Of a DNA stretch of 64,000 nt, positions 40,117 through 56,670 are shown one piece after another. The first letter of the stretch is position 1. Each line of letters begins with the position of its first letter. Under the pieces are notes generated by a model. That model was not told where the DNA came from. It made no database searches and worked only from the letters and a program-made list of their open reading frames with translations. Made by a program: the position numbers and the translations under genes. Origin of the DNA: Dechloromonas sp. HYN0024 (lineage in GTDB: Bacteria; Pseudomonadota; Gammaproteobacteria; Burkholderiales; Rhodocyclaceae); the NCBI RefSeq assembly GCF_003441615.1, contig NZ_CP031842.1:2550001-2614000 (forward strand), read 5' to 3'.

Positions 40117-40969
40117 GCGCCCCCCCGCCCAGGAAGGTTTCCCGCACCGTCGGTGCCGGGTAATCGAAATGAACCGGACCATCTGGAGCGGCGTGAACGA
40201 ACTGGTGGACGAAAGGATCCGACGACGCCCGAATCTCGTCCGGCGTCCCCTCGGCCACGACCCGCCCGCCGTTCATGAAATAGATGTAGTCGACGATGAG
40301 CAGGGATTCCTGAATATCGTGGGTGACCATGATCGATGTTGCGCCCAGCGCATCATTCAACTTGCGAATCAACTGGCCGATGACACCGAGTGCAATCGGG
40401 TCGAGCCCGGTAAACGGCTCGTCGTACATCACCAGCATGGGGTCGAGCGCCAGCGCCCGGGCCAGGGCAACTCGCCGCGCCATGCCGCCCGACAACTCGC
40501 CCGGCATCAATTTGTGCGCCCCGCGCAAACCAACTGCCTCAAGCTTCATGAGCACCAGGTCGCGAATCATTTCATCCGACATGTCGGTATGTTCGCGCAT
40601 CGGAAAAGCCACGTTCTCGAAGACACTCATGTCGGTAAACAGGGCACCGAACTGGAACAGCATGCCCATCCGGCGACGCAGACCGTACAGCTCGGCCTCC
40701 GACATTTCGCAGACCTGATGTTTTTCCAGACGAACGCGCCCGCCGGTCGGCCGCAACTGGCCGCCAATACAGCGCAGCAGCGTCGTTTTGCCACAACCGG
40801 AACCGCCCATGATCGCCACCACCTTGCCGCGCGGAATCTTCATATTGATTCCCTGCAGCACCGGCTGGCCATCGTAGGCAAACTGAAGATCCTCGATATC
40901 AACCAGGATGTCTTCGGACAAAGCGTATTCCTTCGAAAAAAGTCGGTCGATTTTAGCAGAAAGCCCCAC
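40109..40969 (-). CDS. mlaF: MlaF, ATPase subunit of the Mla lipid transporter
   Basis: 286 residues. Walker A GGSGCGKTTLLR, signature motif LSGGMARRVALARAL, Walker B VMYDEPFTGLDPI and H-loop VTHDIQES are visible. It powers phospholipid movement across the envelope. It leads the mlaFEDACB run. The first 18 residues are not conserved, so translation might begin slightly later. It is divergent from a sigma54-type regulator gene. Confidence 0.95.
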   Translation of the reverse strand: MGLSAKIDRLFSKEYALSEDILVDIEDLQFAYDGQPVLQGINMKIPRGKVVAIMGGSGCGKTTLLRCIGGQLRPTGGRVRLEKHQVCEMSEAELYGLRRRMGMLFQFGALFTDMSVFENVAFPMREHTDMSDEMIRDLVLMKLEAVGLRGAHKLMPGELSGGMARRVALARALALDPMLVMYDEPFTGLDPIALGVIGQLIRKLNDALGATSIMVTHDIQESLLIVDYIYFMNGGRVVAEGTPDEIRASSDPFVHQFVHAAPDGPVHFDYPAPTVRETFLGGGAHA

Positions 40970-40991: not shown

Positions 40992-40997
40992 TATAAT
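40992..40997 (+). promoter_or_regulatory. -10 box of the regulator/msh promoter
   Basis: A perfect TATAAT lies 31 bases before the TTG start at 41028. No good -35 hexamer is present 16-18 bases upstream (ACCGTC at best), so activation by another factor is possible. Confidence 0.5.
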
Positions 40998-41027: not shown

Positions 41028-42449
41028 TTGCCACCAAACAGGCCTCTCCTGCTCATCGTCGATGACGACTCGCTGGTCAGCGAATCGCTCAGTTTCGCCT
41101 TCGCGCAGGAGTATGACGTCATCACCAGCCACGCTAGAGCCCATGCCCTGACGCTCTTGCGTCAGCTCAGACAGGCACCGCAGCTGGCGCTGGTTGACCT
41201 CGGCCTGCCGCCGCTCCCACATCGGCCGGATGAGGGCTTTGCCCTGATTTCCGACTTGCTGACCCTCTCGCCGGACATGAAGATCATTGTCCTTTCAGGC
41301 CAGAGCGACGAGAGCAACGCCCGCCATGCCCGCACCCTGGGGGCCATCGATTTTGTCGCCAAGCCTTGTGACCCGAGTCACCTCAGCAAACTCCTCGGCC
41401 AGGCCCAGCGCTTTGGCAAGGAGACACCAGACACCCGGGCCGGCGGCCTGATCGGCGAGAGCCTGTCGATGCAACGCCTGCGCCTGCAACTGGGCCAGTA
41501 TGCCAATTTGCCCTATCCGGTATTGATCGAGGGCGAATCAGGCAGTGGCAAGGATATCGTCGCCAGCCACTACCTGCATCGCCAGACTGAGCGCCGCGAC
41601 CAGCCTTACCTCGCCCTCAATTGTGCGGCCATTTCGCCGACCCTCCTTGAGCCGACGCTGTTCGGCTATGCCAAGGGGGCATTTACCGGCGCCACCAGCG
41701 CCAAATCCGGTTACTTCGAAGATGCCGACCACGGCACCCTGTTTCTCGACGAAATCGGTGAACTTCCCCTCGACTTGCAGCCCAAACTGCTGCGTGTCCT
41801 CGAAAACGGTGAATACCAGCGGGTCGGCGAAACGCAGACCCGGGTGTCCACGGCGCGTATCGTGGCGGCCACCAATCGCGACCTGCGCCAGGAAATCAAG
41901 GCTGGCCGTTTCCGGGCCGACCTGTTTCATCGCCTTTCCGTCTTTACGGTCGCCGTGCCGCCGCTCCGCGACACCGGACTTGACCGCCTGCTGCTCCTCG
42001 AACACTTTCGCAAAGGCTATGCCGCCAGCGTTCGGGCCGAACCTTTCGAGCTCGCCGCGCCGGCCCAATCCCTGTGGCTCGACTACGCCTTTCCGGGCAA
42101 TGTGCGCGAGTTGCGCAATATCGTCATCCGTCTCAGCGCCCGCTACCCGGGACAAACCGTCAGCGCCAGCCAGTTGCGCGACGAGCTCGACCAGCCCGAC
42201 ACCATCGAACCGGCGACCAGTACAGCCGGTCTGATCGCCGACGATCTCGATGTGGTCAAGCGGGCCGCCCGCCAGCATCTCGAGCGATCGTCACCAATCA
42301 ATCTCGACGCCACGCTCGAACTCTGGCAGCGCGGCTATATTGAAGCCGCCATCGAACTGAGCGCCGGCAACATGAGCGAAGCTGCCCGCCGCCTCGGCAT
42401 CAACCGCACGACACTCTACAACCGCATGGAAATCTGGACCCGCCGATGA
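41028..42449 (+). CDS. Sigma54-dependent response regulator (PilR/PrsR-like)
   Basis: 473 residues from a TTG start with GGAAG 8 bases upstream. Receiver domain about 5-125: acidic pocket DDD at 12-14, phospho-acceptor Asp57 in VDLGLPPL and Lys112 in [11 protein letters not shown]+ domain about 140-380: Walker A GESGSGKD, the sigma54 contact loop GAFTGA at 217-222, and [16 protein letters not shown]-terminal Fis-type helix-turn-helix ([19 protein letters not shown]). The receiver resembles PrsR of exosortase systems, but no PEP-CTERM gene is present. It overlaps mshM by ATGA, so it heads the msh transcript. The likely target is the sigma54 promoter of the prepilin gene at 55999; the likely partner is the kinase at 54187-55869. 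Confidence 0.88.
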
Positions 42450-43813
42450 GCCTTTATCTCGAACACTTCGGCCTGCGCGAGCCTCCGTTTCGCATCACGC
42501 CGCACACCGACTTCTTCTTTACCGGTGCCAACCGTGGCCCCACCCTCGACGCCCTGATCTACGCCATCACCCAGGACGAAGGTATCGTCAAGGTCACCGG
42601 CGAGGTCGGCAGTGGCAAGACCATGCTCTGCCGAATGTTGCTCGAGCGTCTCCCCGAGCACGTCGAAACCCTCTACCTGGCCAATCCGTCGCTCTCCCGC
42701 CAGGAAATTCTCGGCGCCATCGCTGATGAGCTGGGTATCCCGACCGATGGCAAGGCCACCCACTCGCTGACCCGCGCCCTGCAGGACGCACTGATCGAAC
42801 GTTACGCCAAGGGCAAACGCGTCGTCCTCCTGATCGACGAGGCGCATGCCATGCCGGCAGAGTCGCTTGAGGAAATCCGCCTGCTCTCGAATCTCGAATC
42901 GAAAGCGACCAAACTCCTGCAAATCGCCCTCTTTGCCCAGCCCGAACTCGACCAGCGCCTTGCCGCTACCGACATGCGCCAGTTGCGCGAGCGCATTACC
43001 CAGCATTTCAATCTGGCCCCGCTCAAACAGGACGATATTGGTGCCTACATCGAGTTCCGCCTGCGCGCCGCCGGCTATCGTGGCCCCAATCCATTCGCCG
43101 CCGACGCGGTGGCGATGATTGCCAAAGCCTCCGAAGGCCTGTCACGCCGCATCAACATCCTCGCCGACAAGGCCCTGCTGGCTGCCTATTCCACCGGCCG
43201 TCATCAAGTGGGCGTTACCGAGATCAGGATCGCCGCGCAGGATGCCCGGTTTTCCGCGCTCAATCCAAAACCGGCCAGCAATTTCACACCACTGCTTTGG
43301 GGGGCCAGCGGTGCCGCCATTACCGCCCTGCTCGTCGCCATGACGCTGGGAACCCTGCCGCGCACCCTGCTCGAAGTAGCCCTTGGCAATGTGCCGCCAC
43401 CAAGCCTGCATACACAAGCCGCCCAACCTGCTCCCCGCCCGTCAACCGCACCATTGCGGCCGGAAGCGGCAACCCCGGCCGACAAAATCCGCTTCGCCCC
43501 CCTGACCCGCCAGCACTTTGCCCAATACGACCAGTGGATTGGCGACGCCCCGAACAGCCACTACTTCATTCAGCTACTGGCCACCGATGCCTCCCAGACC
43601 GGCGAGATCGAAGGCTTCCTGTCCCGCATAACCAACGCCCTCGAGCCGGCACAAATTCGCGTCTATCGCTCCAGCCTGTCAGGGCGCGACCGGGTCGGTG
43701 TCATCTATGGTGACTTCGCCAGCCGGGAAGAAGCCGTTGAGGCCATGCGCGGCCTGCCCGAATCGATCAAGGCCGTACAGCCATTCCCCAGACAGGTCAG
43801 CAAACTCCGCTAA
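42446..43813 (+). CDS. mshM: MshM, ExeA-like AAA ATPase with C-terminal SPOR-like domain
   Basis: 455 residues. AAA/GspA-like ATPase about 1-265 beginning [20 protein letters not shown], Walker A GEVGSGKT at 52-59, Walker B VVLLIDEAHAMP. A TM helix follows (about 278-300), then an Ala/Pro linker and a periplasmic C-terminal domain (about 365-450). That domain, with YFIQLLATDA, RVYRSSLSGRDRVGVIYG and SREEAVEAMRGLP, looks like a SPOR peptidoglycan-binding fold. In Vibrio the MshM C-terminus differs; this layout is closer to DamX or ExeA. It may help fit the secretin into the cell wall. Confidence 0.85.
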   Translation: MSLYLEHFGLREPPFRITPHTDFFFTGANRGPTLDALIYAITQDEGIVKVTGEVGSGKTMLCRMLLERLPEHVETLYLANPSLSRQEILGAIADELGIPTDGKATHSLTRALQDALIERYAKGKRVVLLIDEAHAMPAESLEEIRLLSNLESKATKLLQIALFAQPELDQRLAATDMRQLRERITQHFNLAPLKQDDIGAYIEFRLRAAGYRGPNPFAADAVAMIAKASEGLSRRINILADKALLAAYSTGRHQVGVTEIRIAAQDARFSALNPKPASNFTPLLWGASGAAITALLVAMTLGTLPRTLLEVALGNVPPPSLHTQAAQPAPRPSTAPLRPEAATPADKIRFAPLTRQHFAQYDQWIGDAPNSHYFIQLLATDASQTGEIEGFLSRITNALEPAQIRVYRSSLSGRDRVGVIYGDFASREEAVEAMRGLPESIKAVQPFPRQVSKLR

Positions 43814-43916
43814 ACTGCCCGAAACACCCCATGAGCATTGCCAAACGCATTACGTGCTAGCATCACCACGCTACAATGCAATCCGTCACCACTCTGCACA
43901 GACAAGGCCAAACCCG

Positions 43917-45704
43917 ATGAACATCGGTTTCATCAGCGCAACCCTCGTGTCCGTCCTGCTCGCCGCCTGCACGGCGCCCGCCCCGCGTGAACCCCTCAAA
44001 GGGCATTTGAACTCCGAAAGCTCGGCGCCAGCTCCGGCGGCGAACATTCCGGCCCCGGTTCAGCAAACGCTTGCCCTGCCCCAGCCCAGCCCAGCCCGCA
44101 AGGCAGAAACCTATAGCGTCGTAGTCAACAACGTCCCGGTCCGCGACCTGCTTTTCGCCCTGGCCCGTGACGCCAAGGTCAATGTCGACATCCACCCCGG
44201 CATTACCGGCGTGGTCACCCTCAACGCCATTGACCAGACCCTGCCACAGCTGCTGACCCGCATTTCGAAGCAGGTCGACATGCGCTTCGAACTCGACGGC
44301 CCGAACCTGGCGGTCATGCCCGACTCGCCGTTTCTCAAGCATTACAAGGTCGATTACGTGAACATGGCGCGCAACGTCACTGGCACCGTGTCGACCAACA
44401 CCCAGATCGCCACCGGAACACCAGGAAGCGCCGGTGGGGCAAATCCGTCAGCCGGCGGTGCCGGCAATATTTCCAACACCCGGATCGAAAACAGCTCGCG
44501 CAATCAGTTCTGGGAATCGCTGGAACGGAACATCAAGGACATCCTGCGGGAAACCGACAAGCTTTTGCCTGAAGGATCGAGTGAACCCCTGGTCGAACAA
44601 AGCAGCGCCGAGAGCGCCACAGGCACCGGCGCCCTGCCGCAAGCCACAGGCCGGCGTGCCGCCCAGGCCGTGGCCAATGTCCTGCAAGCCAATCCCACGC
44701 CAAGTTCAACCAGCCAGGCCACAGGGACCTCTGTCGTCCGTCGCAACACGTTTCGGGAAGCCGCATCGGTCATCATGAATGCGGAAAGTGGCGTCATTAC
44801 CGTGCGCGCCACCCAACGCCAGCATGATCGCATCCAGGAGTTTGTCGACCGGGTTACCCACTCGGCAGGCAAACAGGTACTGATCGAAGCCACCATTGTC
44901 GAAGTCACCTTGAATAATGGCTATCAGCAAGGTATCAACTGGACACAACTGGCCGGCGGCGGAACCCTCAGTTTTATCGGTAACGGACTGACCAAAAACA
45001 CCGCCAACCTGACTTACACCAAAGGTGGCAATCCAAACTCACTGATCACCATGCTCGACACCTTTGGCACCACCAAGGTTCTTTCCAGCCCGCGCGTATC
45101 GGTCATGAACAATCAGACGGCGCTACTGAAGGTCGTTGAGAACTACGTTTATTTCAGCGTCAAAGCCGACACCACGACAACCGCCAACGTGGGCACGACA
45201 ACGACCTACACGACGACCCCGCAATCCGTTTCGGTCGGCCTCGTGGTCAGCGTGACACCGCAAATCAGTGATGGCGATGCGGTGACACTCAACGTGCGCC
45301 CGACGATAACCTCGGTTGCCCGCGAAGTCCTCGACCCCAACCCCGAACTCAAAAAGAATGACATCAGCAATCTCGTACCGGTCATCCGAACTCGCGAGAT
45401 CGAATCGGTGATGCGTGTTGCCAGTGGCAATATCGCCATTCTTGGCGGGCTGATGGAAGACCAGATTGACTATCAGAATCAGCGCGTGCCGCTGCTCGGA
45501 CAAATTCCGCTGGCGGGAGAACTGGTCAACAACCGGAACAACATTGCCAAAAAGACCGAACTGGTCATCTTCCTGCGCCCCGTCGTCATCAAGGATGCCA
45601 GCCTGGACGGCGACTTCGCGCCCTTGCGCGACCACCTGCCCGGCCAGAAATTTTTTGCCCAGCCGAATGAAGCGCAGCCTTTCAACATCGTTCCGAGCCG
45701 CTGA
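43917..45704 (+). CDS. mshL: MshL, secretin of the MSHA-type pilus
   Basis: 595 residues. Lipoprotein signal peptide with lipobox LLAAC at about 13-17. A short N-terminal secretin/STN region (VVVNNVPVRDLLFALARDAKVNVDIHPGITG) precedes a Ser/Thr-rich segment (about 165-255) and the secretin domain (about 280-570) with QVLIEATIVEVTLNNGYQQG, VLSSPRVSVMNNQTALLKV and VPLLGQIPLAGELVNNR. It forms the outer-membrane ring. The ATG at 43917 gives the signal peptide; the in-frame sequence upstream to 43698 runs into mshM. Confidence 0.92.
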   Translation: MNIGFISATLVSVLLAACTAPAPREPLKGHLNSESSAPAPAANIPAPVQQTLALPQPSPARKAETYSVVVNNVPVRDLLFALARDAKVNVDIHPGITGVVTLNAIDQTLPQLLTRISKQVDMRFELDGPNLAVMPDSPFLKHYKVDYVNMARNVTGTVSTNTQIATGTPGSAGGANPSAGGAGNISNTRIENSSRNQFWESLERNIKDILRETDKLLPEGSSEPLVEQSSAESATGTGALPQATGRRAAQAVANVLQANPTPSSTSQATGTSVVRRNTFREAASVIMNAESGVITVRATQRQHDRIQEFVDRVTHSAGKQVLIEATIVEVTLNNGYQQGINWTQLAGGGTLSFIGNGLTKNTANLTYTKGGNPNSLITMLDTFGTTKVLSSPRVSVMNNQTALLKVVENYVYFSVKADTTTTANVGTTTTYTTTPQSVSVGLVVSVTPQISDGDAVTLNVRPTITSVAREVLDPNPELKKNDISNLVPVIRTREIESVMRVASGNIAILGGLMEDQIDYQNQRVPLLGQIPLAGELVNNRNNIAKKTELVIFLRPVVIKDASLDGDFAPLRDHLPGQKFFAQPNEAQPFNIVPSR

Positions 45705-45713
45705 GGGCAGCCC

Positions 45714-46943
45714 ATGAGCCTGTTGATGGATGCCCTGAAACGGGCGGAAAGCGCCAAGCAGGAGTCAGCCCGCAACGCCCAGGGGGGACTGTTGCCAACG
45801 ACGGCCGATCTTATTCTCGAGCCGATTACCAGCGACCCGGCTAAAGGGTCCGCCAACCCACTCCCCGACCTGGCACTGCATCTGGCCGCCGTTGACGCCG
45901 ATCTGGCGCAATCGGCAACCGTCCCTGAATCACGACCCGCCGCAGCACCACCCCGGCCGGCCCCGCCGCAAGCCCGGCCGACCGAGGCGCAGGAAACCGT
46001 GCGCAGCGCCTTTGCAGCAAAACAGCCCAGCCCCGAACCGTCACGACGCCCGCTCTGGATAGCCTTGGGCACACTGGGCCTGGCCGGCCTCAGCATCGGG
46101 GCGTATGTCTGGTATCAAATGAATAATATCGGTCAGGGCTCGTTGTCGGCCAATGTACGCCCACCCGTCGCCCAGCCTGTCGCACCGGCAATCGTCCCGG
46201 CCCAGCCGCCGGCCGTTTTGCCGCCGCCCGAACGGGCGAGTGCCAGCATTGCCAGCACCGCCCCCCTGTTTCCCCGTCCGGAGAGCCGTCGGGTGAGTCC
46301 GCCACAAGCGGCGGCCGACGCGCCGGAAAATCTCCCGATTCGTCTGACGCGCACCCGCCCCGAGGCTGACCGCAACCTGGCACAGGGCTACACCAGCCTG
46401 CAACAAGGCGACACCGAACTCGCCCGCCATGAGTTCGAGCAGTCGCTGCGGCGCGACCCGAACAATACCGATGCCCTGCTCGCCCTGGCCGCCATCGCCC
46501 AGCGTCAGGGCCGTCTGGCCGAGGCGGAAGGCTGGCGCCAGAGGGCAATGGTCGCCAATCCGAGTGACCCGGCAACCCAGGCCGCCGTTCTCAACAGCCC
46601 GTCGGCGAACGCCGACCCGCTGACGACAGAAAGCCGCCTGAAGTCACTGCTTTCCAGCCAGCCAGAGTCTGCCTCACTCAACTTCGCCCTCGGCAATCTG
46701 TATTCCCGCCAGAGCCGCTGGGCCGAAGCGCAACAGGTCTATTTCAACGCCGTAGCCGGTGATGGGGACAATCCGGACTACCTGTTCAACCTCGCCGTCA
46801 GCCTCGACCATCTGCGACAAGCTCGCCTCGCCGCTCAGCATTACCGGCTTGCGCTAGAGGCTGCCACCAAGCGCCCGGCTGGTTTCGACCGCGACAGTGT
46901 GAACAAGCGCCTGGGCGAACTGCAAGGCGAGCGCCAGCCCTAG
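45714..46943 (+). CDS. mshN: MshN, TPR-containing pilus assembly protein
   Basis: 409 residues. The N-terminus MSLLMDALKRAESAKQE is typical of MshN/GspB-like proteins. One TM helix (about 107-127), a Pro/Ala-rich periplasmic linker and at least three TPR repeats follow (about 215-400, QGYTSLQQGDTELARHEFEQ and FALGNLYSRQSRWAEAQQVY). It probably links the inner-membrane platform with the secretin. It is spaced 9 bases after mshL. Confidence 0.85.
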   Translation: MSLLMDALKRAESAKQESARNAQGGLLPTTADLILEPITSDPAKGSANPLPDLALHLAAVDADLAQSATVPESRPAAAPPRPAPPQARPTEAQETVRSAFAAKQPSPEPSRRPLWIALGTLGLAGLSIGAYVWYQMNNIGQGSLSANVRPPVAQPVAPAIVPAQPPAVLPPPERASASIASTAPLFPRPESRRVSPPQAAADAPENLPIRLTRTRPEADRNLAQGYTSLQQGDTELARHEFEQSLRRDPNNTDALLALAAIAQRQGRLAEAEGWRQRAMVANPSDPATQAAVLNSPSANADPLTTESRLKSLLSSQPESASLNFALGNLYSRQSRWAEAQQVYFNAVAGDGDNPDYLFNLAVSLDHLRQARLAAQHYRLALEAATKRPAGFDRDSVNKRLGELQGERQP

Positions 46944-46946
46944 CCG

Positions 46947-48653
46947 ATGAGCACCTCGACACTCCAGCGCCGACCACTCGGCCAGATCCTCATCTCCGAA
47001 GGCATCCTGTCGGAAGATCAGCTGCGCATCGCGCTGCTCGAGCAGATGAAGCAGAACCAGCCGATCGGCAAACTGCTGGTTTCCCTGGGCTTCGTCACCG
47101 AAGCCACGCTACGCCAGGCGCTCTCCGAAAACCTCGGCAAGCAGAGCATCGACCTGTCGCACGCCGTTGCCGACCCGCAAGCCCTGAGGCTCGTTCCGCA
47201 CGAACTGGCCAAGCGCCACCACCTGTTGCCGCTCGATTACGACTATCAGAACCGGCGCCTGACGCTGGCCATCTCCGACATCAACGACATCGTCGGCCTC
47301 GACCGCGTGCGCAGCCAGCTCGAAGAGGGCACGGAAATCGAGACGCTGCTCGCCGGCGAGTCCGAGATCGACCATGCCATCGACCAGTATTACGGCCATG
47401 AGTTGTCGATCGATGGCATCCTGCACGAAATCGAAACCGGCGAAATCGACTGGCAGAGTCTCTCCGCCACCGACGACGAATACAGCCAGCCGGTTGTCCG
47501 CCTGATCGACTCGATTCTTACCGATGCCGTCAAGCGCGAGGCCTCGGACATCCACTTCGAGCCGGAAGCCAACTTCCTGCGCATCCGCTATCGCATCGAC
47601 GGCATGCTGCGCCAGATTCGCGCCCTGCATAAGTCCTACTGGCCGGCCATGACGGTGCGCATCAAGGTGCTGTCCGGGATGAATATCGCCGAAATGCGTG
47701 CCCCGCAGGATGGCCGCATCAGCCTGACGGTCTCCGGCCGCCCCATCGACTTCCGGGTAGCCAGTCAGCCGACCATCCATGGCGAAAACATCGTCCTGCG
47801 CATTCTCGACCGGCAAAAAGGCATCGTCCCGCTGGAAAGCCTCGGCCTCGCCGAAGAACACCTGCACCAGCTCAAACTGATGATTGCCCGGCCCGAGGGC
47901 ATCATTCTCGTCACCGGCCCGACCGGCAGCGGCAAGACAACCACGCTCTACTCGGTACTCAACCATATCAACGCCGAGGGTATCCACATCATGACCCTCG
48001 AGGACCCGGTCGAATACCCGATGGCCATGGTCCGCCAGACCTCGGTCTCGGAAACTGCCAAACTCGACTTCGCCAACGGCATCCGCTCGATGATGCGCCA
48101 GGATCCGGACGTCATCCTGGTCGGCGAAGTGCGCGATGCTGAAACGGCCGAAATGGCCTTCCGCGCCGCGATGACCGGCCATCAGGTGTACACCACCCTG
48201 CACACCAATTCAGCGATCGGCGCCGTCCCCCGCCTGCTCGACATCGGCGTCCTGCCCGACGTGATGGCCGGCAATATTATTGGCATCATCGCCCAGCGCC
48301 TGATCCGCCGCCTGTGTGACCACTGCAAGACGCCCTACCACGCCGAACCCCATGAAATCAGGTTGCTTGGCCCGCTGAGCGAAGGTCCGCACCCGGTCCT
48401 GTTCCGGCCGACCGGCTGTGAACGCTGCGATTTCCAGGGCTATCGTGGCCGCGTCGCCATCATGGAACTTCTCCGCATCGACGCCGGGATCGACGAGTTG
48501 ATCGCCCGCCGCGCGACCACGCACGAAATCCGCACGCGCGCCCTGTTCCAGGGCTTTACGACACTGGCCGACGACGGCATGGAGCGCGTCCTCAACGGTA
48601 CGACGTCGCTTGAAGAACTGGCCCGCGTCGTCGACCTGACCGACCGGATGTAA
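46947..48653 (+). CDS. mshE: MshE, pilus extension ATPase with c-di-GMP-binding MshEN domain
   Basis: 568 residues. The first 65 residues hold two tandem MshEN motifs (RPLGQILISEGILSEDQL and QPIGKLLVSLGFVTEATL), the element that binds c-di-GMP in Vibrio MshE. A GspE ATPase follows: Walker A GPTGSGKTTTL, Asp box, Walker B RQDPDVILVGEVRD, His box TGHQVYTTLHT, and a zinc tetra-Cys cluster (CDHCKTPYH...CERCDFQG). It drives pilus polymerisation from the cytoplasm. Confidence 0.95.
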   Translation: MSTSTLQRRPLGQILISEGILSEDQLRIALLEQMKQNQPIGKLLVSLGFVTEATLRQALSENLGKQSIDLSHAVADPQALRLVPHELAKRHHLLPLDYDYQNRRLTLAISDINDIVGLDRVRSQLEEGTEIETLLAGESEIDHAIDQYYGHELSIDGILHEIETGEIDWQSLSATDDEYSQPVVRLIDSILTDAVKREASDIHFEPEANFLRIRYRIDGMLRQIRALHKSYWPAMTVRIKVLSGMNIAEMRAPQDGRISLTVSGRPIDFRVASQPTIHGENIVLRILDRQKGIVPLESLGLAEEHLHQLKLMIARPEGIILVTGPTGSGKTTTLYSVLNHINAEGIHIMTLEDPVEYPMAMVRQTSVSETAKLDFANGIRSMMRQDPDVILVGEVRDAETAEMAFRAAMTGHQVYTTLHTNSAIGAVPRLLDIGVLPDVMAGNIIGIIAQRLIRRLCDHCKTPYHAEPHEIRLLGPLSEGPHPVLFRPTGCERCDFQGYRGRVAIMELLRIDAGIDELIARRATTHEIRTRALFQGFTTLADDGMERVLNGTTSLEELARVVDLTDRM

Positions 48654-48658
48654 GCGGC

Positions 48659-49858
48659 ATGCTTTTCGATTACAAGGCGGTCAGCGCAGAAGGGCGGATG
48701 ACTTACGGCCGGATCGATGCGATCAATCTGACCGATCTTGAGATGCGCCTGCGGCGGATGAATCTCGACCTTATCAACGGTACGCCGATCACCCATCGCA
48801 GCCTGTTTGGGGCGCAGCGCGTACCGCGCCTTGAACTGATCAATTTCTGCTTTCACCTCGAACATCTGACCCGGGCCGGCGTCCCCATCCTCGAAGGGCT
48901 GACCGACCTGCGCGATTCGGTTGAGCACCCCCGCTTCCGCGAAGTCATGGCCGGCATGATCGAAAGCATCGAAGGCGGCCAGACCCTGTCGCATGCGATG
49001 GATACCCATCCCGAAATTTTCAGTCAGGTCTTCGTCAACCTCATCCGGGCCGGCGAGACCAGCGGCCAGTTGCCCGAGGTACTGGACAGCCTGACCGAGT
49101 CGCTGAAATGGGAGGACGAACTGGCCTCGCACACGAAGAAGCTGCTGATGTACCCGGCCTTTGTCGCGACTATCGTGCTCTCTGCCACCTTCTTCCTGAT
49201 GATCTACATGGTGCCGCAGCTCAAGATGTTCGTGAAGAACATGGGGCAGGTGCTGCCGCCCCATACCAAGCTGCTGTTTTTCATCTCCGACCTGCTGGTT
49301 GCTTACTGGTATGTCTTCCTCGCCCTCCCGGTACTGGCCGTTGTGGTCGTGCAGGCGGCGCTGCGCAGCAATCCGCTGGTGCGCTTTCGCATGGATGAAA
49401 TCAAGCTGCACCTGCCGGTCGTTGGCAGCATCCTGCAAAAGATCATTCTGGCCCGCTTTGCCAACACTTTTGCCATGCTTTACGCGTCCGGCATCCCGGT
49501 CCTCGAGTCGATCCGCACGACCCAGGCCATTGTCGGCAACCTGGTCATGCGCAAGGCGCTGGAGCGGGTCGAGCAGTCGATCCGCGAAGGACAGAATGTG
49601 GCCGGCGCCTTTCACGATGCCGGGCTCTTTCCACCCCTCGTCGTCCGCATGCTGCGCATTGGCGAAAGTACCGGTGGCCTGGACAAGGCACTGCTCAACG
49701 TCAGCTATTTTTACAACCGTGACGTCAAGGAAGCCGTCGGCAAGGCCCAGACACTGATCGAGCCGATGCTGACTCTTTTCATGGGCGCCCTGCTTGGCTG
49801 GATTATGCTGTCGGTCATCGGTCCCATTTACGACGTCATCAGCAAGATAAAAACGTGA
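48659..49858 (+). CDS. mshG: MshG, inner-membrane platform protein (GspF/PilC family)
   Basis: 399 residues with two GspF domains (about 65-190 and 270-395) and three or four TM helices. Signatures include FHLEHLTRAGVPILEGL, LIRAGETSGQLPEVLDSL and FANTFAMLYASGIPVLESI. It couples ATPase motion to pilin assembly. Translationally linked to mshI by GTGA. Confidence 0.95.
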   Translation: MLFDYKAVSAEGRMTYGRIDAINLTDLEMRLRRMNLDLINGTPITHRSLFGAQRVPRLELINFCFHLEHLTRAGVPILEGLTDLRDSVEHPRFREVMAGMIESIEGGQTLSHAMDTHPEIFSQVFVNLIRAGETSGQLPEVLDSLTESLKWEDELASHTKKLLMYPAFVATIVLSATFFLMIYMVPQLKMFVKNMGQVLPPHTKLLFFISDLLVAYWYVFLALPVLAVVVVQAALRSNPLVRFRMDEIKLHLPVVGSILQKIILARFANTFAMLYASGIPVLESIRTTQAIVGNLVMRKALERVEQSIREGQNVAGAFHDAGLFPPLVVRMLRIGESTGGLDKALLNVSYFYNRDVKEAVGKAQTLIEPMLTLFMGALLGWIMLSVIGPIYDVISKIKT

Positions 49859-51390
49859 CCAGCCGCCTTCTCTATCTCAACACCCATCGCCTGTCGGCCT
49901 ACGGCTGGCAGCAGGGCAGCCTGCGGGCCGAGGGCGTGTTCGACAACAACGACGATGGTCATCGCCAGTTTGCCGACTACCTGGGGCTGCATCACGGCAG
50001 CCAGTTCTCCCTGATCGCCAATGTCGCCGAAGAAGGTCATGCCCTCGAAACCATCCCTTTCGTCAGGGGCAGCGACCGGCAGGCACTGATTTCGCGCAAG
50101 ATCGGCCAGCATTTTTTCAGCACATCGTTAACCACGGCGACCTCGCTGGGCTACGAGAAGACCCAGCGCAAAAATGAACAGCTCCTCCTTTCGGCCCTGA
50201 CCAACCCGGCCCATTTCGAGCCGTGGCTGCATCGTATCGACGAAGCCGAAGTCTCCCTGGCCGGTATTTACACCATTGCCCAGCTGGGTGGCCAGTTGCT
50301 CAGGAAGCTGGGACAGAACTGTCATCGCTGCCTGCTGCTGACAGTTCAGGATCATTCGATCCGCGAAACCTATCTGGTCAACGGCCATCCCCATTTCTCG
50401 CGGATGGCACCGCTCACCGACAGCAGCATTGCCGGGATTGCCAGTGCCTTGGTTGCCGAATCCGGCAAACTGCACCAATACCTGATCGGCCAACGCCTGA
50501 TCGGCCGCAGCGAAAGCCTGCCAACCTTTATCGTCGGCCACCCCCAGACCATCCCGGCCATCGATAGAGTCAGCACCGACAACGGCCCGCTCAAATTCAC
50601 CCTGATCGACAGCCACGTCGCCGCCGCCAAGCTCAAATTGCAAACGCTGCCTGACGACAATCGCAGTGACCTGCTCTTTCTTCATCTGCTGGCCACCGCA
50701 CCGCCAGAGCAGCAATTTGCCAGCGAAGCCCATCGCCACCACTTCCACCTGTCGCAAATTCGTCGCAGCCTGATCGCCACCGGCCTGATCGCCCTGCTCG
50801 GCGGCGTCCTGTTCGCCGCCAAGGAAACCTACGACGCCGAGAGCCTGCGCACCGAAACAAACGCCTTGCAGGCCAGCCAGGCCGATCTGACCCGGCGCTA
50901 TCAGGAAATCTCGGCCACCTTCCCGCAACTCGATGTGGACAACGATACGCTGCGGCGAATGACCAACCGCTACAGCGAACTTCTCCGCCAGAAACGCCAG
51001 CCGGCCTCGAGCTTCGCCATGGTCAGCCATGTTCTCGATCGTATGCCGGCAATCGTGCTTGAGGGCATCGACTGGAAGAATGGCCAGGATGCCGGCCCCA
51101 ACCGGGGTGCGGCCACCGCACCCGTCGCCGTCGTGGCCCGCCGAGGCGGGCCGGAGGTCACCACCGTGCGTGGCTCGATTCGCCTTGAGCGGGCGACCAC
51201 CCGGCAAATACTCGCGGTCTTTGACCAGTTTGTCGAAGCCCTGCGCGCTGATCCGGCCAACACCATCAATATCCTGCAACGCCCCTTTGACATTGAATCA
51301 GGGCATACCCTGCGCAGCAGCGACGGGCAGGATGAAAGCGCCCAACCCCGACAGTTTGCCGTTGAAATCGTCAGGAGCAGCGCGCCATGA
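49855..51390 (+). CDS. mshI: MshI, PilM-PilN-like fused pilus alignment protein
   Basis: 511 residues from a GTG. The N-terminal 290 residues resemble an actin-like PilM region without clear nucleotide motifs. A TM helix follows (about 300-322, LIATGLIALLGGVLFAAKE), then a periplasmic coiled coil and a PilN-like domain (about 325-510). In many genomes these parts are split as MshI1/MshI2. Its place between mshG and mshJ supports the name more than sequence motifs do. Confidence 0.78.
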   Translation: MTSRLLYLNTHRLSAYGWQQGSLRAEGVFDNNDDGHRQFADYLGLHHGSQFSLIANVAEEGHALETIPFVRGSDRQALISRKIGQHFFSTSLTTATSLGYEKTQRKNEQLLLSALTNPAHFEPWLHRIDEAEVSLAGIYTIAQLGGQLLRKLGQNCHRCLLLTVQDHSIRETYLVNGHPHFSRMAPLTDSSIAGIASALVAESGKLHQYLIGQRLIGRSESLPTFIVGHPQTIPAIDRVSTDNGPLKFTLIDSHVAAAKLKLQTLPDDNRSDLLFLHLLATAPPEQQFASEAHRHHFHLSQIRRSLIATGLIALLGGVLFAAKETYDAESLRTETNALQASQADLTRRYQEISATFPQLDVDNDTLRRMTNRYSELLRQKRQPASSFAMVSHVLDRMPAIVLEGIDWKNGQDAGPNRGAATAPVAVVARRGGPEVTTVRGSIRLERATTRQILAVFDQFVEALRADPANTINILQRPFDIESGHTLRSSDGQDESAQPRQFAVEIVRSSAP

Positions 51391-51989
51391 AGCTGACCAG
51401 CCGCGATTTTCCCAAACTGCTCGGTCCTCTGCTTGCCGCCCTGCTCATGTTCGTGGTCGCCGGCCTGCTCGCCTGGGCAAGCCAGGTCCAGGCCGGCAAG
51501 GCCGAACAGGAGCGCAAGGCTGCAACAGCAGCGAAAAACCAGATCGAGCAACGCCTGCGTCAGGTACGTACCGAAGAACAGGACATCAAGGAACGAACCC
51601 AACTCCTCCAGCGACTGCAGAACGCCGGCATCACCGGTGATGAAAAGCGGCTCGACTGGATAGAAACGCTGCGCGACATCCAGCGCGACCTGCGCATTCC
51701 CGGCATGAGTTACGAGTTCGGGGCCCAAGCCAGCCTGGACAAGACGGATGATGCCACCTACGCGTGGTACGCCAGTCCGCTGCGCATTCAGCTCCGCCTG
51801 CTGCACGAAGAGGATCTGCTCAACTTCCTCGCCCGCCTCGAAAAAGATGCCGCGGCCCTGGTTATCGTACGTAACTGCAAGCTTTTACCCTTGCCAGTCC
51901 AGACCGATGCCCGGCAAACGCCGGCCCAGCTTTCTGCCGAGTGCGAAATGCAGTGGCTGACGGCCCGCCGCATGAGCGACAGGAAATGA
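51387..51989 (+). CDS. mshJ: MshJ, PilO-like pilus assembly protein
   Basis: 200 residues. A short cytoplasmic start, one TM helix (about 10-32), a coiled coil (about 35-75) and a ferredoxin-like periplasmic domain, as in PilO/GspM. It probably pairs with MshI. It overlaps both neighbours by 4 bases. Confidence 0.78.
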   Translation: MKLTSRDFPKLLGPLLAALLMFVVAGLLAWASQVQAGKAEQERKAATAAKNQIEQRLRQVRTEEQDIKERTQLLQRLQNAGITGDEKRLDWIETLRDIQRDLRIPGMSYEFGAQASLDKTDDATYAWYASPLRIQLRLLHEEDLLNFLARLEKDAAALVIVRNCKLLPLPVQTDARQTPAQLSAECEMQWLTARRMSDRK

Positions 51990-52354
51990 TGCTCAGCCGA
52001 TCACTCGCCCTTCTCCTGCTGGCCCTCGCCAATTCGCCGAGCATCGCCGACACCTCCACCCTCGGCCGTCTCTTCCTCGACCCGCAACAACGGGCCAGGC
52101 TTGATCTGCAGCGCCAGCACAACCCCCGCTTCCAGCCCGGAAGCGGCGAAGCGGAAGCCAGCCAGACCATCAATGGTGAAGTCCGCAGCAGCAACGGGCG
52201 TCGCATGCGCTGGATCAATGGGGAAGCCAACTGGGATAGCACCACGCCGGCCCGCACCCCGGTTGGCGACACATTCAATCCGGCCACCGGCGAGCAGGAG
52301 AGTCTGCTGCGGGGCGGCAGCATCCGCATCAAGCCGGGTGAGCGACGGCCGTAA
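51986..52354 (+). CDS. MshK-like small periplasmic protein
   Basis: 122 residues. Signal peptide (about 1-19, cleaved near SIAD), then a polar domain with INGEVRSSNGRRMRWINGE, reminiscent of PilP/GspC-type pilotin-linker folds. The MshK assignment comes from its position after mshJ. The start at 51986 overlaps the mshJ stop; an ATG 3 bases later is equally possible. About 200 bases of gene-free sequence (52355-52554) follow, in which no clear terminator was found. Confidence 0.6.
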   Translation: MMLSRSLALLLLALANSPSIADTSTLGRLFLDPQQRARLDLQRQHNPRFQPGSGEAEASQTINGEVRSSNGRRMRWINGEANWDSTTPARTPVGDTFNPATGEQESLLRGGSIRIKPGERRP

Positions 52355-52554
52355 CTGGCGATGCCGGCGTTAGCCGAGCCAATGATTGCGTAGGCATAGT
52401 CTTTCTTGCCAAGGGAAGGGCACAACCAATACCGTAGCCGTACCACCTCCCCTCCCCATCCGCACCGACCTGATTATGCCATTGTCAATTTTATTCACCT
52501 CGAATTGAAAACTTAATTAGAATCGGGTGGCGTCCAAATTACTGGAGCCAACCG

Positions 52555-52890
52555 ATGTCGGTCACACGTTTTCCAGCTATTTCCGAACGCAAATGCCGCC
52601 AGGGAAGCCATACCCGGTTCGGAATTTCTGACCCGCACCAGGCGCAGCAAGGGCATGCACTGCTCCTGCTTTTTCTCACCCTCGGCTTTGCCAGCACCCT
52701 GTTCCTGACAACCTGGAACAACCAACGGATTCATCTGGCACGGGAGCAAAAGACCGAGCAGTCGCTACTGCTGGCCAAGGAGGCATTGCTTGCCTACGCC
52801 CTGACCTACGGCGAGCTCCAGCGAACCAACGCCCTGCCTTTCGGCATATTGACCGGGGAGACGTCGACTGCCACACTGAGTTCCGAATAA
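52555..52890 (+). pseudogene. Truncated pilin-like (MshP/PilX-type) gene remnant
   Basis: 111 residues. After about 30 odd residues comes QQGHALLLLFLTLGFASTLF, the Gly-hydrophobic start of large minor-pilin-like proteins, then the helix EQSLLLAKEALLAYALTYG. In relatives this is followed by an LPCPD-type motif and some 200-300 more residues. Here it reads NALPFG and ends 15 residues later. The gene appears to have lost its 3' part, so a functional pilin is unlikely. The break falls just before the adenylate cyclase gene. Confidence 0.65.
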
Positions 52891-52915
52891 CTTTGTCGTA
52901 GCCAAGACACAATTC

Positions 52916-54190
52916 GTGAACCGCCCTCCCTTTCTTGTTGCCCTACGTACCGGTGGCGTCCGTCCCGAAGATGATGCCGAAACACGCCTGAAAAAGACAT
53001 TGCTGGTTTTCGCCACCGGCCTCGTCAGCGCCGGATCGATGCTGTGGCTGTTCCTGTACGGGCAGATGGGGCCGCAGTTTTCGGCGACGGCCCCGCTGAT
53101 TTTCCAATTGGCCGTTGTCGGCAACCTGCTGTATTACCTGCGCAGCGGCAATTTCGACCGCTTCCGTTATTCGCAGCTGGCGCTCTTTCTGTTTGCCCCG
53201 TTTGCCGTCCAGTGGAGCATCGGCAATTTCATCACGGCAAGCGGCACCAGCCTCTGGGGTTTGCTCGCGCCGATCGGTGCAGTCCTGTTCTTCGGCGTGC
53301 GTGAATCGCTGGCCTGGTTCATCGCCTACATTTTCCTCACTGCGCTTTCCGGATTTTTTGATTACTTCCTGGCCGACACCCTGGCCAGCAATGCGCCCAA
53401 GGTATCGACCCGGACCAGCGTATTCTTCTTTGCCCTCAACTTTGCCGCGATTTCCAGCATCGTTTACCTGCTTCTGCGCTACGCGGTGCAGGAAAAAGCC
53501 AAGGCCCAGGCCAGCCTGGAGGCCACCCACCGCTTGCTGCAAGATGAACAGGAACGCTCCGAACGCCTCCTGCTCAACATCCTGCCCGGCCCCATTGCCG
53601 AACGCCTGAAGCATGACAGCCAGACCATCGCTGACGGCTTTGCCGACGTCACGGTGATGTTTGTCGACATCGTCAATTTCACCCGGATCGCCGAAAAAAT
53701 GACGCCGCAGCAGGTTTTTGCCATGCTCAACCGGATCTTTTCATCCTTCGATGAACTGGCCGAACACCACGCCACCGAGAAGATCAAGACCATCGGTGAT
53801 GCCTACATGGTGGCGGGCGGCCTCAACAACGAGCAAAGCAACTACACCCAGTCGATCGCCGAACTGGCCGTCGCCATGCGCGACTTGTTGCATCGCGACT
53901 TCACGGTAAACGACATGCATCTCGATGTCCGCATCGGGATCGGTACCGGACCGGTGGTAGCAGGCGTCGTCGGCAAAAAGAAATTCATCTACGATCTGTG
54001 GGGCGACACCGTCAATCTGGCCAGCCGGATCACCAGCGAAGGAACGCCGGGCATGATCCACGTCGACGAAACCACCTATCAGCGACTAGCCGAGCACTTT
54101 TGCTTCGACCAGCCCAAGGTTTTGCACCTCAAGGGCAAGGGCGATACCGTGGTCTATCGACTGGACCGCTTGCGGGAAGCCAACCCCTAA
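52916..54190 (+). CDS. Class III adenylate cyclase, membrane-bound
   Basis: 424 residues from a GTG start. Five or six N-terminal TM helices (about 25-190) form a putative sensor of unknown ligand. A coiled-coil linker follows (about 191-215). The cyclase domain is about 225-415: metal-binding Asp251 (FVDIVNFT) and Asp295 (IGDAY), adenine-selecting Lys291 and Asp360 (YDLWG), and transition-state Asn367/Arg371 (NLASR). All catalytic residues are present, so it should make cAMP. It converges with the kinase gene, with stop codons overlapping by 4 bases. The position between pilus genes is notable because cAMP controls pili in other proteobacteria. Confidence 0.9.
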   Translation: MNRPPFLVALRTGGVRPEDDAETRLKKTLLVFATGLVSAGSMLWLFLYGQMGPQFSATAPLIFQLAVVGNLLYYLRSGNFDRFRYSQLALFLFAPFAVQWSIGNFITASGTSLWGLLAPIGAVLFFGVRESLAWFIAYIFLTALSGFFDYFLADTLASNAPKVSTRTSVFFFALNFAAISSIVYLLLRYAVQEKAKAQASLEATHRLLQDEQERSERLLLNILPGPIAERLKHDSQTIADGFADVTVMFVDIVNFTRIAEKMTPQQVFAMLNRIFSSFDELAEHHATEKIKTIGDAYMVAGGLNNEQSNYTQSIAELAVAMRDLLHRDFTVNDMHLDVRIGIGTGPVVAGVVGKKKFIYDLWGDTVNLASRITSEGTPGMIHVDETTYQRLAEHFCFDQPKVLHLKGKGDTVVYRLDRLREANP

Positions 54191-55869
54191 CGTCGAGGCG
54201 ACAAGGAAAAGGCGACGCAGCCCGGCCGATTGTCGGACAGCGCCAGCAGATAGCCCGCCCCTTCAGCCTGCTGGGCAGCGTGATACAGACCGATGCCCAG
54301 GCCATCCTCCGACGCCACCGGCTCACGGAACAAGGCACAGGACAACGAAGGGGCCACGGCAGAGCCGTCGTCCGACACGATCAGGCATCCATCGGCAAAG
54401 CGCACACTGATGGTCAGCCCCGGCTGGCGCTGACGCTTGGCCAGTGCATTCTGCAAGAGGTTCTCGGCAACGCTGTCGAACAAGGCTCCAGGCAAGGTCT
54501 CGCCCGCTGTGGGTTCGCCCAGCCAGACCACCGGCAAATGTTCGTAGCGCTCCTTGAAGGCACGCCACCATACGGCAGCCGCCCCTAACTGAAGGCGCTC
54601 CGTGTCGGGGGACTGCAATTTATCCAGCGTCGCCTTCAGGCGATCGGTAATCTGCGGCAACTGACGGCCAAGCAAGGCCGCCACCTCGGCCGGATCGCCC
54701 GGCTGGTTGGCGGCATAGCACAGTACCTGCAAGGACTGCAGGAGATTCTTCACATCGTGGGTCACCCGCGCCCCGGTTTCGTAAATGGCCTGGACATAGC
54801 CCATGCGCTGCAACCGATGGGTATGCGCCTTGACCAGATAAAACTCGACTGCCAGGCGCAGCAGCCACTCGACATGCCAGTCCATGGCCGGTGACGGCGC
54901 CTGGCGAAAGTGGACCGACAGCGAAATCTCGTTGGCCTGACACGTATGCCCGTACCCTGTCTGGGTACCAGACAAGCCCAGACGCGGCCCGGCCGTCCAC
55001 GAGACTCCGACGACCCAGGGAATTTCCTGCAGGCGCCCGATAATCGCATCGAGAAACAGCACCGGATCGGCGTGCCGCTCGCTCTCCTCGGCCAGTCTGG
55101 CCAGCCACTCCTCAAGCGGCATCCCGGCGGACATCATGTAACGCGAAATCGCCGCGCCGATACCGGCAAATCCACTATGTGGATTCCATGCCCAGGCAAC
55201 GACCAGCAAGGCCCCCGCAACAGCGAGTGAGGTTTTGAACAGCGCCTCGACATAACCAGCGCCAGCCAACAGCATGTAGGCTAGGGCGCCCAGGATAAAG
55301 ACAGCAAGGATCAGAAAAACCATCACGCCATAGAACAGGTCAAAGGCCTGGGCGGCCTTTCGCTGCCGTGCCTCGGCCGGAAATAGCAGGAGAAACGGCA
55401 GCACCAGAGGCATGAAGCGGGCGAAAACGCTGCGCAGTAGGGGATCAAGTGCCACCACCGGAGAAATCTCCGGGACCGCCCCAAGAACGATGACACAGAT
55501 CAGATAACCGAAGGCCAGAAGGTAGCCCAAGCGCTCCCGACGCCGCTCGGTCCCCAGCACCCGACCGCCAATCGCGGCCGCCAGAGCGCCACACCAGACC
55601 AGCAGCAACCACGGCCCAAGCAGCAGGGTCGACGTCAATACCAGTGCGAACAAGACCCCGCCCTGACGGAATTCGATGCGCTGCTCGCCGATCACAAAGG
55701 GTTGCCAGATCAGGAAAAGGCCGAGCGCCACCACCCACAGCAGGCGAACAGCCGGAATTTGCCAGCCGCCAAAAGCCAGGGTGTGCAACATGAACAAATG
55801 CGCAGCCAGGAGAAAATGCGGCCACACGGCCAGGCGGCGTGCCGTCAAACTGACGATTCCAATGTTCAT
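54187..55869 (-). CDS. Membrane sensor histidine kinase (PrsK/PilS-like)
   Basis: 560 residues. Seven or eight TM helices (about 15-230), a GAF-like region (about 250-345), a phospho-acceptor helix with His371 in VTHDVKNLLQSL (the HDxKN type seen in PrsK), and an ATPase domain (about 455-558) with N-box VAENLLQNALAKR and Gly box EDGLGIGLYHAA. There is no receiver in the protein. The nearest candidate regulator is the sigma54 activator at 41028-42449. It reads away from the prepilin gene across a 129-base shared control region. Confidence 0.8.
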   Translation of the reverse strand: MNIGIVSLTARRLAVWPHFLLAAHLFMLHTLAFGGWQIPAVRLLWVVALGLFLIWQPFVIGEQRIEFRQGGVLFALVLTSTLLLGPWLLLVWCGALAAAIGGRVLGTERRRERLGYLLAFGYLICVIVLGAVPEISPVVALDPLLRSVFARFMPLVLPFLLLFPAEARQRKAAQAFDLFYGVMVFLILAVFILGALAYMLLAGAGYVEALFKTSLAVAGALLVVAWAWNPHSGFAGIGAAISRYMMSAGMPLEEWLARLAEESERHADPVLFLDAIIGRLQEIPWVVGVSWTAGPRLGLSGTQTGYGHTCQANEISLSVHFRQAPSPAMDWHVEWLLRLAVEFYLVKAHTHRLQRMGYVQAIYETGARVTHDVKNLLQSLQVLCYAANQPGDPAEVAALLGRQLPQITDRLKATLDKLQSPDTERLQLGAAAVWWRAFKERYEHLPVVWLGEPTAGETLPGALFDSVAENLLQNALAKRQRQPGLTISVRFADGCLIVSDDGSAVAPSLSCALFREPVASEDGLGIGLYHAAQQAEGAGYLLALSDNRPGCVAFSLSPRR

Positions 55870-55875
55870 ATATCA

Positions 55876-55929
55876 GACACCCTGTCCATATTTCGACACC
55901 CCACAGCCAGTTCTTGTCAGAAAATTGTC
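55876..55929 (+). promoter_or_regulatory. TGTC element cluster, candidate activator binding sites
   Basis: TGTC occurs at 55883-55886, 55915-55918 and 55926-55929, and as its complement GACA at 55876-55879 and 55895-55898. TGTC repeats are the known recognition unit of PilR in Pseudomonas. They lie 22-75 bases upstream of the sigma54 promoter, partly arranged as the inverted pair TGTC-N8-GACA. Confidence 0.5.
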
Positions 55930-55949
55930 AGATCTACGCCCAAACGCAT

Positions 55950-55966
55950 AGGCACAAAATTTGCGT
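55950..55966 (+). promoter_or_regulatory. Sigma54 (-24/-12) promoter of the prepilin gene
   Basis: AGGCAC-AAAAT-TTGCG: GG at 55951-55952 and GC at 55963-55964 have exactly 10 bases between them. Only the first base of TGGCAC differs. Transcription should begin near 55976, leaving a leader of about 22 bases before the ATG at 55999. Confidence 0.8.
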
Positions 55967-55998
55967 ATGGTTAAGCAAAATATCAAACGGAGCATGCC

Positions 55999-56670
55999 AT
56001 GAATTCCCGCCAAAAGGGCTTCACCCTTGTCGAAATCGCCATCGTCCTGGTCATTATCGGGCTGTTGCTCGGTGGTGTTCTGAAGGGACAGGAGTTGATC
56101 AATAGCGCGAAGGTCAAGAACTTCGCCAACGATTTCAGAAATATTCCGCTGTTCATCTACGGCTACCAGGACAAGTTCAAGGCCCTGCCCGGTGATGACC
56201 TGAATGTTGCCACCAACGTCACTGGCGCAACGCTAGCCACGACACCCGCCGCCTCTCAAGGCAATGGTGTCATTGATGGCAACTGGGATACGGCGCTGGT
56301 AACCGACGAATCCATGCTGTTCTGGCAGCATGCCCGTCTGGCCGGCTTGGCCAGCGGCGGCACCGTTGTCGCGAACAACAACACTTACTGGCCAACCAAT
56401 GCCGACGGTGGCCGTATCGGCATCGAAAGCGGCAGTGCTCATTTCATCAAGAACACCGATAACGCGACCTTCCTTCAAGGCTCCTATGTCGTTTGCTCGC
56501 AAGGCATCCTCGGCAAATTCGCCAAGCAACTCGACACCACCATGGATGATGGCAATACCGACTCCGGTTCGATGCGGGTCGTTGCACTTAATCACACGCG
56601 GGGTAATGTCGCGCTGGCGCGAGCCAATGTGGATGATGCGACCAGCTACATCGTGTGCATGGGTTTGTAA
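55999..56670 (+). CDS. Prepilin, probable pilin of the MSHA-type system
   Basis: 223 residues. Leader MNSRQKG is cleaved before FTLVEIAIVLVIIGLLLGGV (Glu5 present). The segment KGQELINSAKVKNFANDFRN and the FKALPGDD motif mark a pilin family common next to betaproteobacterial pilus loci. Two Cys residues (VVCSQG and IVCMGL) could form a C-terminal disulfide. It is longer than the PilA-like pilin at 4980-5324, and it is the only intact pilin gene near the msh genes. A terminator follows 20 bases after the stop, so it is monocistronic. Confidence 0.82.
   Translation: MNSRQKGFTLVEIAIVLVIIGLLLGGVLKGQELINSAKVKNFANDFRNIPLFIYGYQDKFKALPGDDLNVATNVTGATLATTPAASQGNGVIDGNWDTALVTDESMLFWQHARLAGLASGGTVVANNNTYWPTNADGGRIGIESGSAHFIKNTDNATFLQGSYVVCSQGILGKFAKQLDTTMDDGNTDSGSMRVVALNHTRGNVALARANVDDATSYIVCMGL

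Follow-up and report, generated by a model that had tools for sequence, protein, structure and literature searches.

We describe a sensor kinase and a sigma54-dependent response regulator that flank a pilus locus of Dechloromonas sp. HYN0024 and very probably form a cognate two-component pair, with the prepilin gene beside the kinase as its main target. The reading draws on genes and sites compared across relatives. The locus lies in a stretch of 64,000 nucleotides (the window; assembly GCF_003441615.1, contig NZ_CP031842.1, positions 2,550,001 to 2,614,000), which belongs to a complete 3.26-Mb genome whose closest named relatives place it near Dechloromonas, Azonexus, and Ferribacterium, and encodes machinery related to that of mannose-sensitive hemagglutinin (MSHA) pili. 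An original prediction, made from the letters of the window, had proposed a sigma54 activator with GAFTGA at the head of the msh transcript, a kinase about 12 kb away at the other end and adjoining a prepilin gene, and a -24/-12 promoter on that gene. The layout holds: GAFTGA is present, and the regulator stop overlaps the ATG at 42446 of the first msh gene, which encodes the MshM-like ATPase. The kinase gene is 11.7 kb from the regulator gene, divergent from the prepilin gene and convergent with a cyclase gene, and the promoter is AGGCACAAAATTTGCG.

Kinase and regulator occur together

Kinases were counted as full-length relatives, with weak partial matches to other kinases dropped, and regulator orthologues in the family were accepted at E values of up to 1e-95. 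Among 121 genomes of the family, 60 carry the kinase and 63 the regulator: both genes are found in 60, the kinase only in none, the regulator only in 3, and neither in 58. With one genome per genus (68 genomes), the same four counts are 34, 0, 3, and 31. They are 109, 2, 4, and 185 across the order (300 genomes) and 49, 2, 2, and 316 across the class (369 genomes). Within each of six genera both states are seen, and kinase and regulator vary in step; one genus is discordant (some of these genomes are incomplete).

The pair also keeps company with the pilus machinery. The msh ATPase (E ≤ 1e-190) was found in 58 of the 60 kinase-bearing family genomes, and the regulator lies at most 12 kb from it in 50 of 62. 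Kinase and regulator occurring independently of msh genes, the pattern that would have spoken against the original prediction, was not seen in the family. The kinase is at most 25 kb from the regulator in 44 of the 62 order genomes compared by position (109 have both genes). In four single-contig genomes (G005, G069, G080, and G118), the two genes are about 190 kb or more apart, and both are kept. The earlier proposal of a self-contained circuit therefore survives in part. Co-occurrence, together with an enhancer that tracks the pair, argues for a built-in sigma54 two-component circuit, but 'self-contained' is too strong, as 30 of 59 other family genomes have the two genes 25 kb or less apart (a count that contig breaks lower).

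A sigma54 promoter and a palindrome precede the pilin gene

Promoters were scored for GG-N10-GC in a TGGCAC/TTGC context, with a threshold of 18 of 21. The window promoter matches this pattern at 19.5, and by its sequence, transcription of the pilin gene by sigma54 is strongly indicated. The prepilin gene beside the kinase was scorable in 54 of the 60 family loci; five of the other six reach a contig end, and L059 does not. A score of at least 18 was found before the pilin gene in 53 of the 54, mostly 40 to 80 bp before the ATG. Shuffles reach this score in 2.5% of cases and random windows from the same loci in 4.3%, so the -24/-12 site is more than a chance match.

Five TGTC elements had been noted ahead of the window pilin gene, and there are five when both orientations are counted (TGTC at 55883, 55915, and 55926; GACA at 55876 and 55895), with a palindrome among them. 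When spaced words ahead of the sigma54 site were counted with no preset motif, TGTC-N8-GACA ranked top, occurring in 28 of 53 regions where 0.1 was expected. A fitted symmetric matrix gave the consensus CTGTCGAAATTTCGACAG. Of 53 family loci, 52 carry this palindrome ahead of the sigma54 site, and its distances to the -24 element seem, by eye, to be spaced at intervals of roughly one helical turn. As these same loci had served for the fit, the matrix was checked by refits on shuffles and random windows, cross-validation on halves, and application to other families without refitting. It holds 17.8 bits of information, versus means of 6.0 for shuffles and 8.5 for random windows. From other families of the order, 44 kinase loci were examined and 29 were scorable (13 of the other 15 are short, with less than 1.5 kb beside the kinase). 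The sigma54 site was found in 27 of these, the palindrome in 20, and both in 19. At class level, the two elements were found in 6 and 7 of 8 loci, figures that omit a spurious 'prepilin' of L267 (a non-pilin reading frame).

Some family genomes have a homologous msh operon and a homologous pilin gene with neither kinase nor regulator. Thirty-five family genomes have the msh ATPase and lack both genes; we sampled 18 of them as negative controls. Fourteen pilin-like genes were scored, giving a best gene for each of 11 loci (L291 was not scorable), and none of the 14 genes, hence none of the 11 loci, reached the palindrome threshold. Kinase, regulator, and enhancer therefore go missing together. 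Two of these loci, L292 and L293, keep a sigma54-like TGGCCG...CTTGC element and have no palindrome; a different activator may now act at their pilin promoters. At L258 and L300, the cyclase and pilin genes are still close together and the kinase is missing.

Both proteins keep residues expected for phosphotransfer

The regulator has a receiver, an AAA+ sigma54 domain, and a Fis-type helix-turn-helix, with GAFTGA, Walker A/B, and the phospho-Asp all present, as expected of an NtrC-type sigma54 activator. Asp57 is conserved in 100% of 34 aligned sequences and GAFTGA in 97 to 100% per residue. A longer frame opens at 40908; full-length orthologue matches start at residues 1 to 7 of the TTG-started form.

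The kinase has the parts of a two-component histidine kinase, namely the His motif of a dimerization and phosphotransfer (DHp) domain and a catalytic (CA) domain with N, G1, and G2 boxes. H371, N375, N474, D500, G502, and G523/G525/G527 are invariant in a 27-sequence alignment, and H[DE]xKN occurs in 102 of 102 kinases. The predicted fold likewise contains DHp and CA parts, with fold matches to kinase CA domains. No Pfam family matched the protein, and hence 6TM_PilS did not. Its GAF-like assignment rests on VIA-align 2; the GAF-like fragment alone gave no Foldseek match with E below 0.001. Databases hold only generic names for the family. Among the best 80 of 495 matches in a scan of named genomes, relatives occur in Dechloromonas/Azonexus and Accumulibacter; the species with a kinase locus include Dechloromonas agitata and D. 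hortensis.

The pilus locus

From 41028, the operon runs through the regulator, MshM-like, MshL, tetratricopeptide repeat (TPR), MshE-like, and MshG-like genes, and then three genes conserved in place or by position, all overlapping or closely spaced (Table 1). Upstream of it, a sigma70 scan gave no full match, and the window scan gave no sigma54/enhancer pair. The locus resembles the Vibrio MSHA locus in its MshL, MshM, MshE-like, and MshG-like machinery genes. Vibrio msh gene order differs from that of the window, where I/J/K-like genes follow G. The MSH model makes mshA, mshE, mshG, mshL, and mshM mandatory (PMC6668835); in the window, MshL is just above its cut-off, and relatives of M, E, and G are there. 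A canonical MSHA locus stands elsewhere in the genome, at about 2.38 to 2.39 Mb (about 2380578 to 2391670), and its ATPase, which several sources name MshE, is 37% identical to that of the window locus. The original label, MSHA-type pilus locus, is thus loose, although it rightly pointed to MSHA-related machinery. The canonical locus has no relative of the kinase or regulator in the 19 kb fetched, and its prepilin gene has neither sigma54 site nor enhancer in front. A literature search, with most subscription journals outside its scope, found no sigma54 or dedicated two-component system for MSHA-type pili.

The cyclase gene was found in 49 of 59 fetched family loci, two of which (L037 and L061) do not have it directly beside the kinase. 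Outside the family it is rarely beside the kinase (1 of 30 order-level loci of other families, L224; 1 of 20 class-level loci, L266, while four more match a cyclase less well on the opposite side), which makes an essential role in the circuit unlikely. In a locus of another family, an ABC-2 transporter-like gene and a further open reading frame lie between kinase and pilin gene (L239:17585-19055); L243:17545-18471 resembles this insert but falls below the Pfam cut-off.

Table 1. Features of the pilus locus and its promoters, in window positions.
Feature	Position	Strand	Basis
TATAAT, possible -10 box ahead of regulator/msh operon (weak)	40992..40997	+	motif
sigma54-dependent response regulator (receiver-AAA+-helix-turn-helix), operon head	41028..42449	+	domains, TTG start
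MshM-like AAA ATPase	42446..43813	+	profile matches
MshL-type secretin, start uncertain	43698..45704	+	TIGR02519 251.9 bits, cut-off 250.2
TPR protein, MshN-like by position	45714..46943	+	Pfam
Pilus extension ATPase, MshEN/T2SSE domains, MshE-like	46947..48653	+	profile matches
T2SSF inner-membrane platform protein, MshG-like	48659..49858	+	Pfam
511-residue protein, MshI-like by position	49855..51390	+	conserved in place; no Pfam match
200-residue protein, MshJ-like by position	51387..51989	+	conserved in place; no Pfam match
Small open reading frame, MshK-like by position, start uncertain	51941..52354	+	no family match
Minor-pilin gene remnant at deletion	52555..52890	+	comparison with relatives
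Class III adenylate/guanylate cyclase	52916..54190	+	profile match
Histidine kinase: about 8 transmembrane helices, GAF-like domain, DHp with HDVKN, CA domain	54187..55869	-	motifs, predicted fold
Palindromic enhancer CTGTCCATATTTCGACAC, presumed regulator site	55882..55899	.	matrix match
TTGTCAGAAAATTGTCAG, second, weaker palindrome match	55914..55931	.	matrix match
-24/-12 sigma54 promoter AGGCACAAAATTTGCG	55950..55965	+	19.5 of 21
Prepilin gene, 223 residues, presumed major pilin	55999..56670	+	profile matches

Alternative readings

Several observations weigh against a cognate pair acting on the pilin gene. Discordant genomes exist, several of them incomplete: those with the regulator alone number 3 in the family, 4 in the order, and 2 in the class, and those with the kinase alone number 2 in the order and 2 in the class. 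The P values for co-occurrence ignore phylogeny. In other families, 9 of 29 loci fall short of the palindrome threshold, and only 4 of 29 have its exact core, versus 28 of 53 in the family. Within the family, L070 lacks the palindrome, L040 lacks a good sigma54 site, and L059 has the kinase with no prepilin in the roughly 2.2 kb searched; no prepilin was found in about 2.3 kb beside the kinase in 11 of 20 class-level loci. Two of the 11 negative-control pilins (L292 and L293) score 18.5 and 18.0 for sigma54. Simple N-box and G2-box patterns match only 86 and 89 of the 102 kinases, with the key residues invariant in the 27-sequence alignment. Finally, loss of minor pilins may mean that the window locus's own pilus is not made.

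This last point leads to the reading, possible but somewhat unlikely, that the circuit is a relic in this strain, in a locus decaying after that loss. The interval 52338 to 52890 spans about 0.5 to 0.6 kb in the window and 1.8 to 3.5 kb in all eight relatives aligned on both sides (L031 and L104 to L110). In L031 the interval encodes a 309-residue GspK-like minor pilin together with a second prepilin; of these, the window keeps a 111-residue remnant of the minor pilin, and the second prepilin is missing. By this comparison, the minor-pilin genes present in relatives are lost at the window locus. Nonetheless, the regulator, kinase, pilin, and machinery genes are all open, promoter and palindrome are present, and another locus, such as the canonical MSHA locus, could perhaps lend minor pilins.

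We consider it unlikely that the pair is cognate and the pilin gene only one of many targets in a broad surface or biofilm regulon. PilR and PrsR do control many genes elsewhere (PMC6058289 and PMC1569441), and our genome-wide search covered exact TGTC-N8-GACA cores only. Yet of 27 exact cores in the genome (24 from the genome-wide search and 3 from the window scan), only three combine a palindrome score of at least 8.1 with a sigma54 score of at least 18. These are the pilin site (23.5 and 19.5), 1440145 (13.4 and 21.0), and 1643592 (10.4 and 20.5; about 1.2 kb from nifA), and the inner bases of the latter two differ from those of the pilin site. There is no second site in the 64-kb window. 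A strong palindrome at 1915868 (22.0; L200) lies inside an open reading frame and has no sigma54 site.

It is very improbable that a NifA or PilR already in the cell uses the enhancer while the linked regulator has another role. NifA-type enhancers follow TGT-N10-ACA, a rule that the palindrome fits with the same half-site spacing. The genome carries both NifA and PilS/PilR, and PilR sites are described as NifA-like with GTCT elements (PMC6058289). Other sigma54-associated sites of this genome also carry TGTCG...CGACA, with inner bases such as GCAAATGC and GCAAACAC versus the consensus GAAATTTC in the pilin palindrome. However, the palindrome occurs in 27 of 28 nifA-negative genomes (exact core in 16) and in 25 of 25 nifA-positive ones (exact core in 12), and being equally common without nifA, it argues against NifA as the needed activator, which we reject. 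It is also missing from all 11 scored promoters without the linked pair, a comparison that leaves PilR presence aside. Elsewhere in the genome, TGTC-N8-GACA sites that are NifA-like by the same rule lie near a -24/-12-like element at 1424046, 1440145, 1627746, 1633023, and 1643592 (sigma54 scores of 17.5, 21.0, 21.0, 19.5, and 20.5).

That the pair is the PEP-CTERM system PrsK/PrsR moved beside pilus genes is scarcely credible: the best NCBIfam matches are TIGR02915 (PrsR) and, weakly, TIGR02916 (PrsK), but the regulator scores 339.9 bits against a cut-off of 502.6 (almost the same as its 336 with the ntrC model), and the kinase 31.1 bits, over residues 349 to 539 only, against a cut-off of 300. 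The PrsK model gave 75 matches in this genome (best 101 bits; the kinase near the bottom with 30.6), and no protein was above its cut-off, so membership is rejected. The published system has a similar logic, with an enhancer and -24/-12 site whose phylogenetic profile matches that of kinase and regulator; its targets are PEP-CTERM genes rather than pilin, its genes are usually in tandem, and its motif ends in TTTACA, unlike those of the window pair (PMC1569441). The resemblance of receiver and H-box to PrsR/PrsK, drawn in the original prediction, is thus superficial.

A proposed switch for pilin expression

Under the cognate-pair reading, the membrane kinase, with its roughly eight transmembrane helices and GAF-like domain, would sense a signal and phosphorylate the regulator, whose synthesis would be coupled to that of the pilus machinery by transcription from the operon promoter. 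Once phosphorylated, the regulator would bind TGTCGAAATTTCGACA, the palindrome that precedes the -24/-12 element, and drive sigma54 polymerase on the pilin gene. Co-occurrence and conserved motifs point to phosphotransfer from kinase to regulator, and the joint presence and absence of pair and palindrome suggests direct binding. The pilin gene would accordingly need rpoN, and its product is presumably the major subunit. In the window, some 21 bp separate the kinase start codon from the palindrome centre upstream of it (9 to 126 bp in the family, median 67.5), and we can only speculate that binding there might also affect the kinase gene, as the distance varies across the family.

This logic resembles that of PilS/PilR and PrsK/PrsR; the pair is widespread, its kinase family has no specific name, and its enhancer is recognizable. 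PilS/PilR comprises a membrane kinase and an NtrC-type regulator that acts with sigma54 on pilA, with PilS sensing pilin directly (PMC6058289). Both systems thus join kinase, regulator, and sigma54 at a pilin gene, behind an enhancer containing TGTC or GTCT. Even so, this genome has its own PilS (6TM_PilS) with an adjacent activator, taken as PilR, and the window pair differs in its number of helices and GAF-like fold, its MSHA-like machine, and its genes split apart. We reject identity with this genome's PilS/PilR, as the kinase has no 6TM_PilS match and the PilS-adjacent activator (L216) falls outside the regulator clade.

The PilS precedent, the GAF-like fold, and the neighboring cyclase suggest that the kinase signal may be free pilin or a cyclic nucleotide. 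A more ambitious extension, which we hold tentatively and with considerable doubt, is that a new membrane-kinase family reads the state of an MSHA-like pilus, through free pilin at the transmembrane bundle and/or a cyclase-made cyclic nucleotide at the GAF-like domain, and switches pilin synthesis via a dedicated sigma54 enhancer, perhaps also feeding back on the kinase gene. If true, such a surface-attachment switch would be conserved across many families of the GTDB Gammaproteobacteria.

The findings suggest a function for a generically named kinase family and offer an independent comparison with the pilin feedback of PilS/PilR. MSHA-like pili are surface-attachment organelles, and the conserved pair and its enhancer give a testable handle on when environmental bacteria make them.

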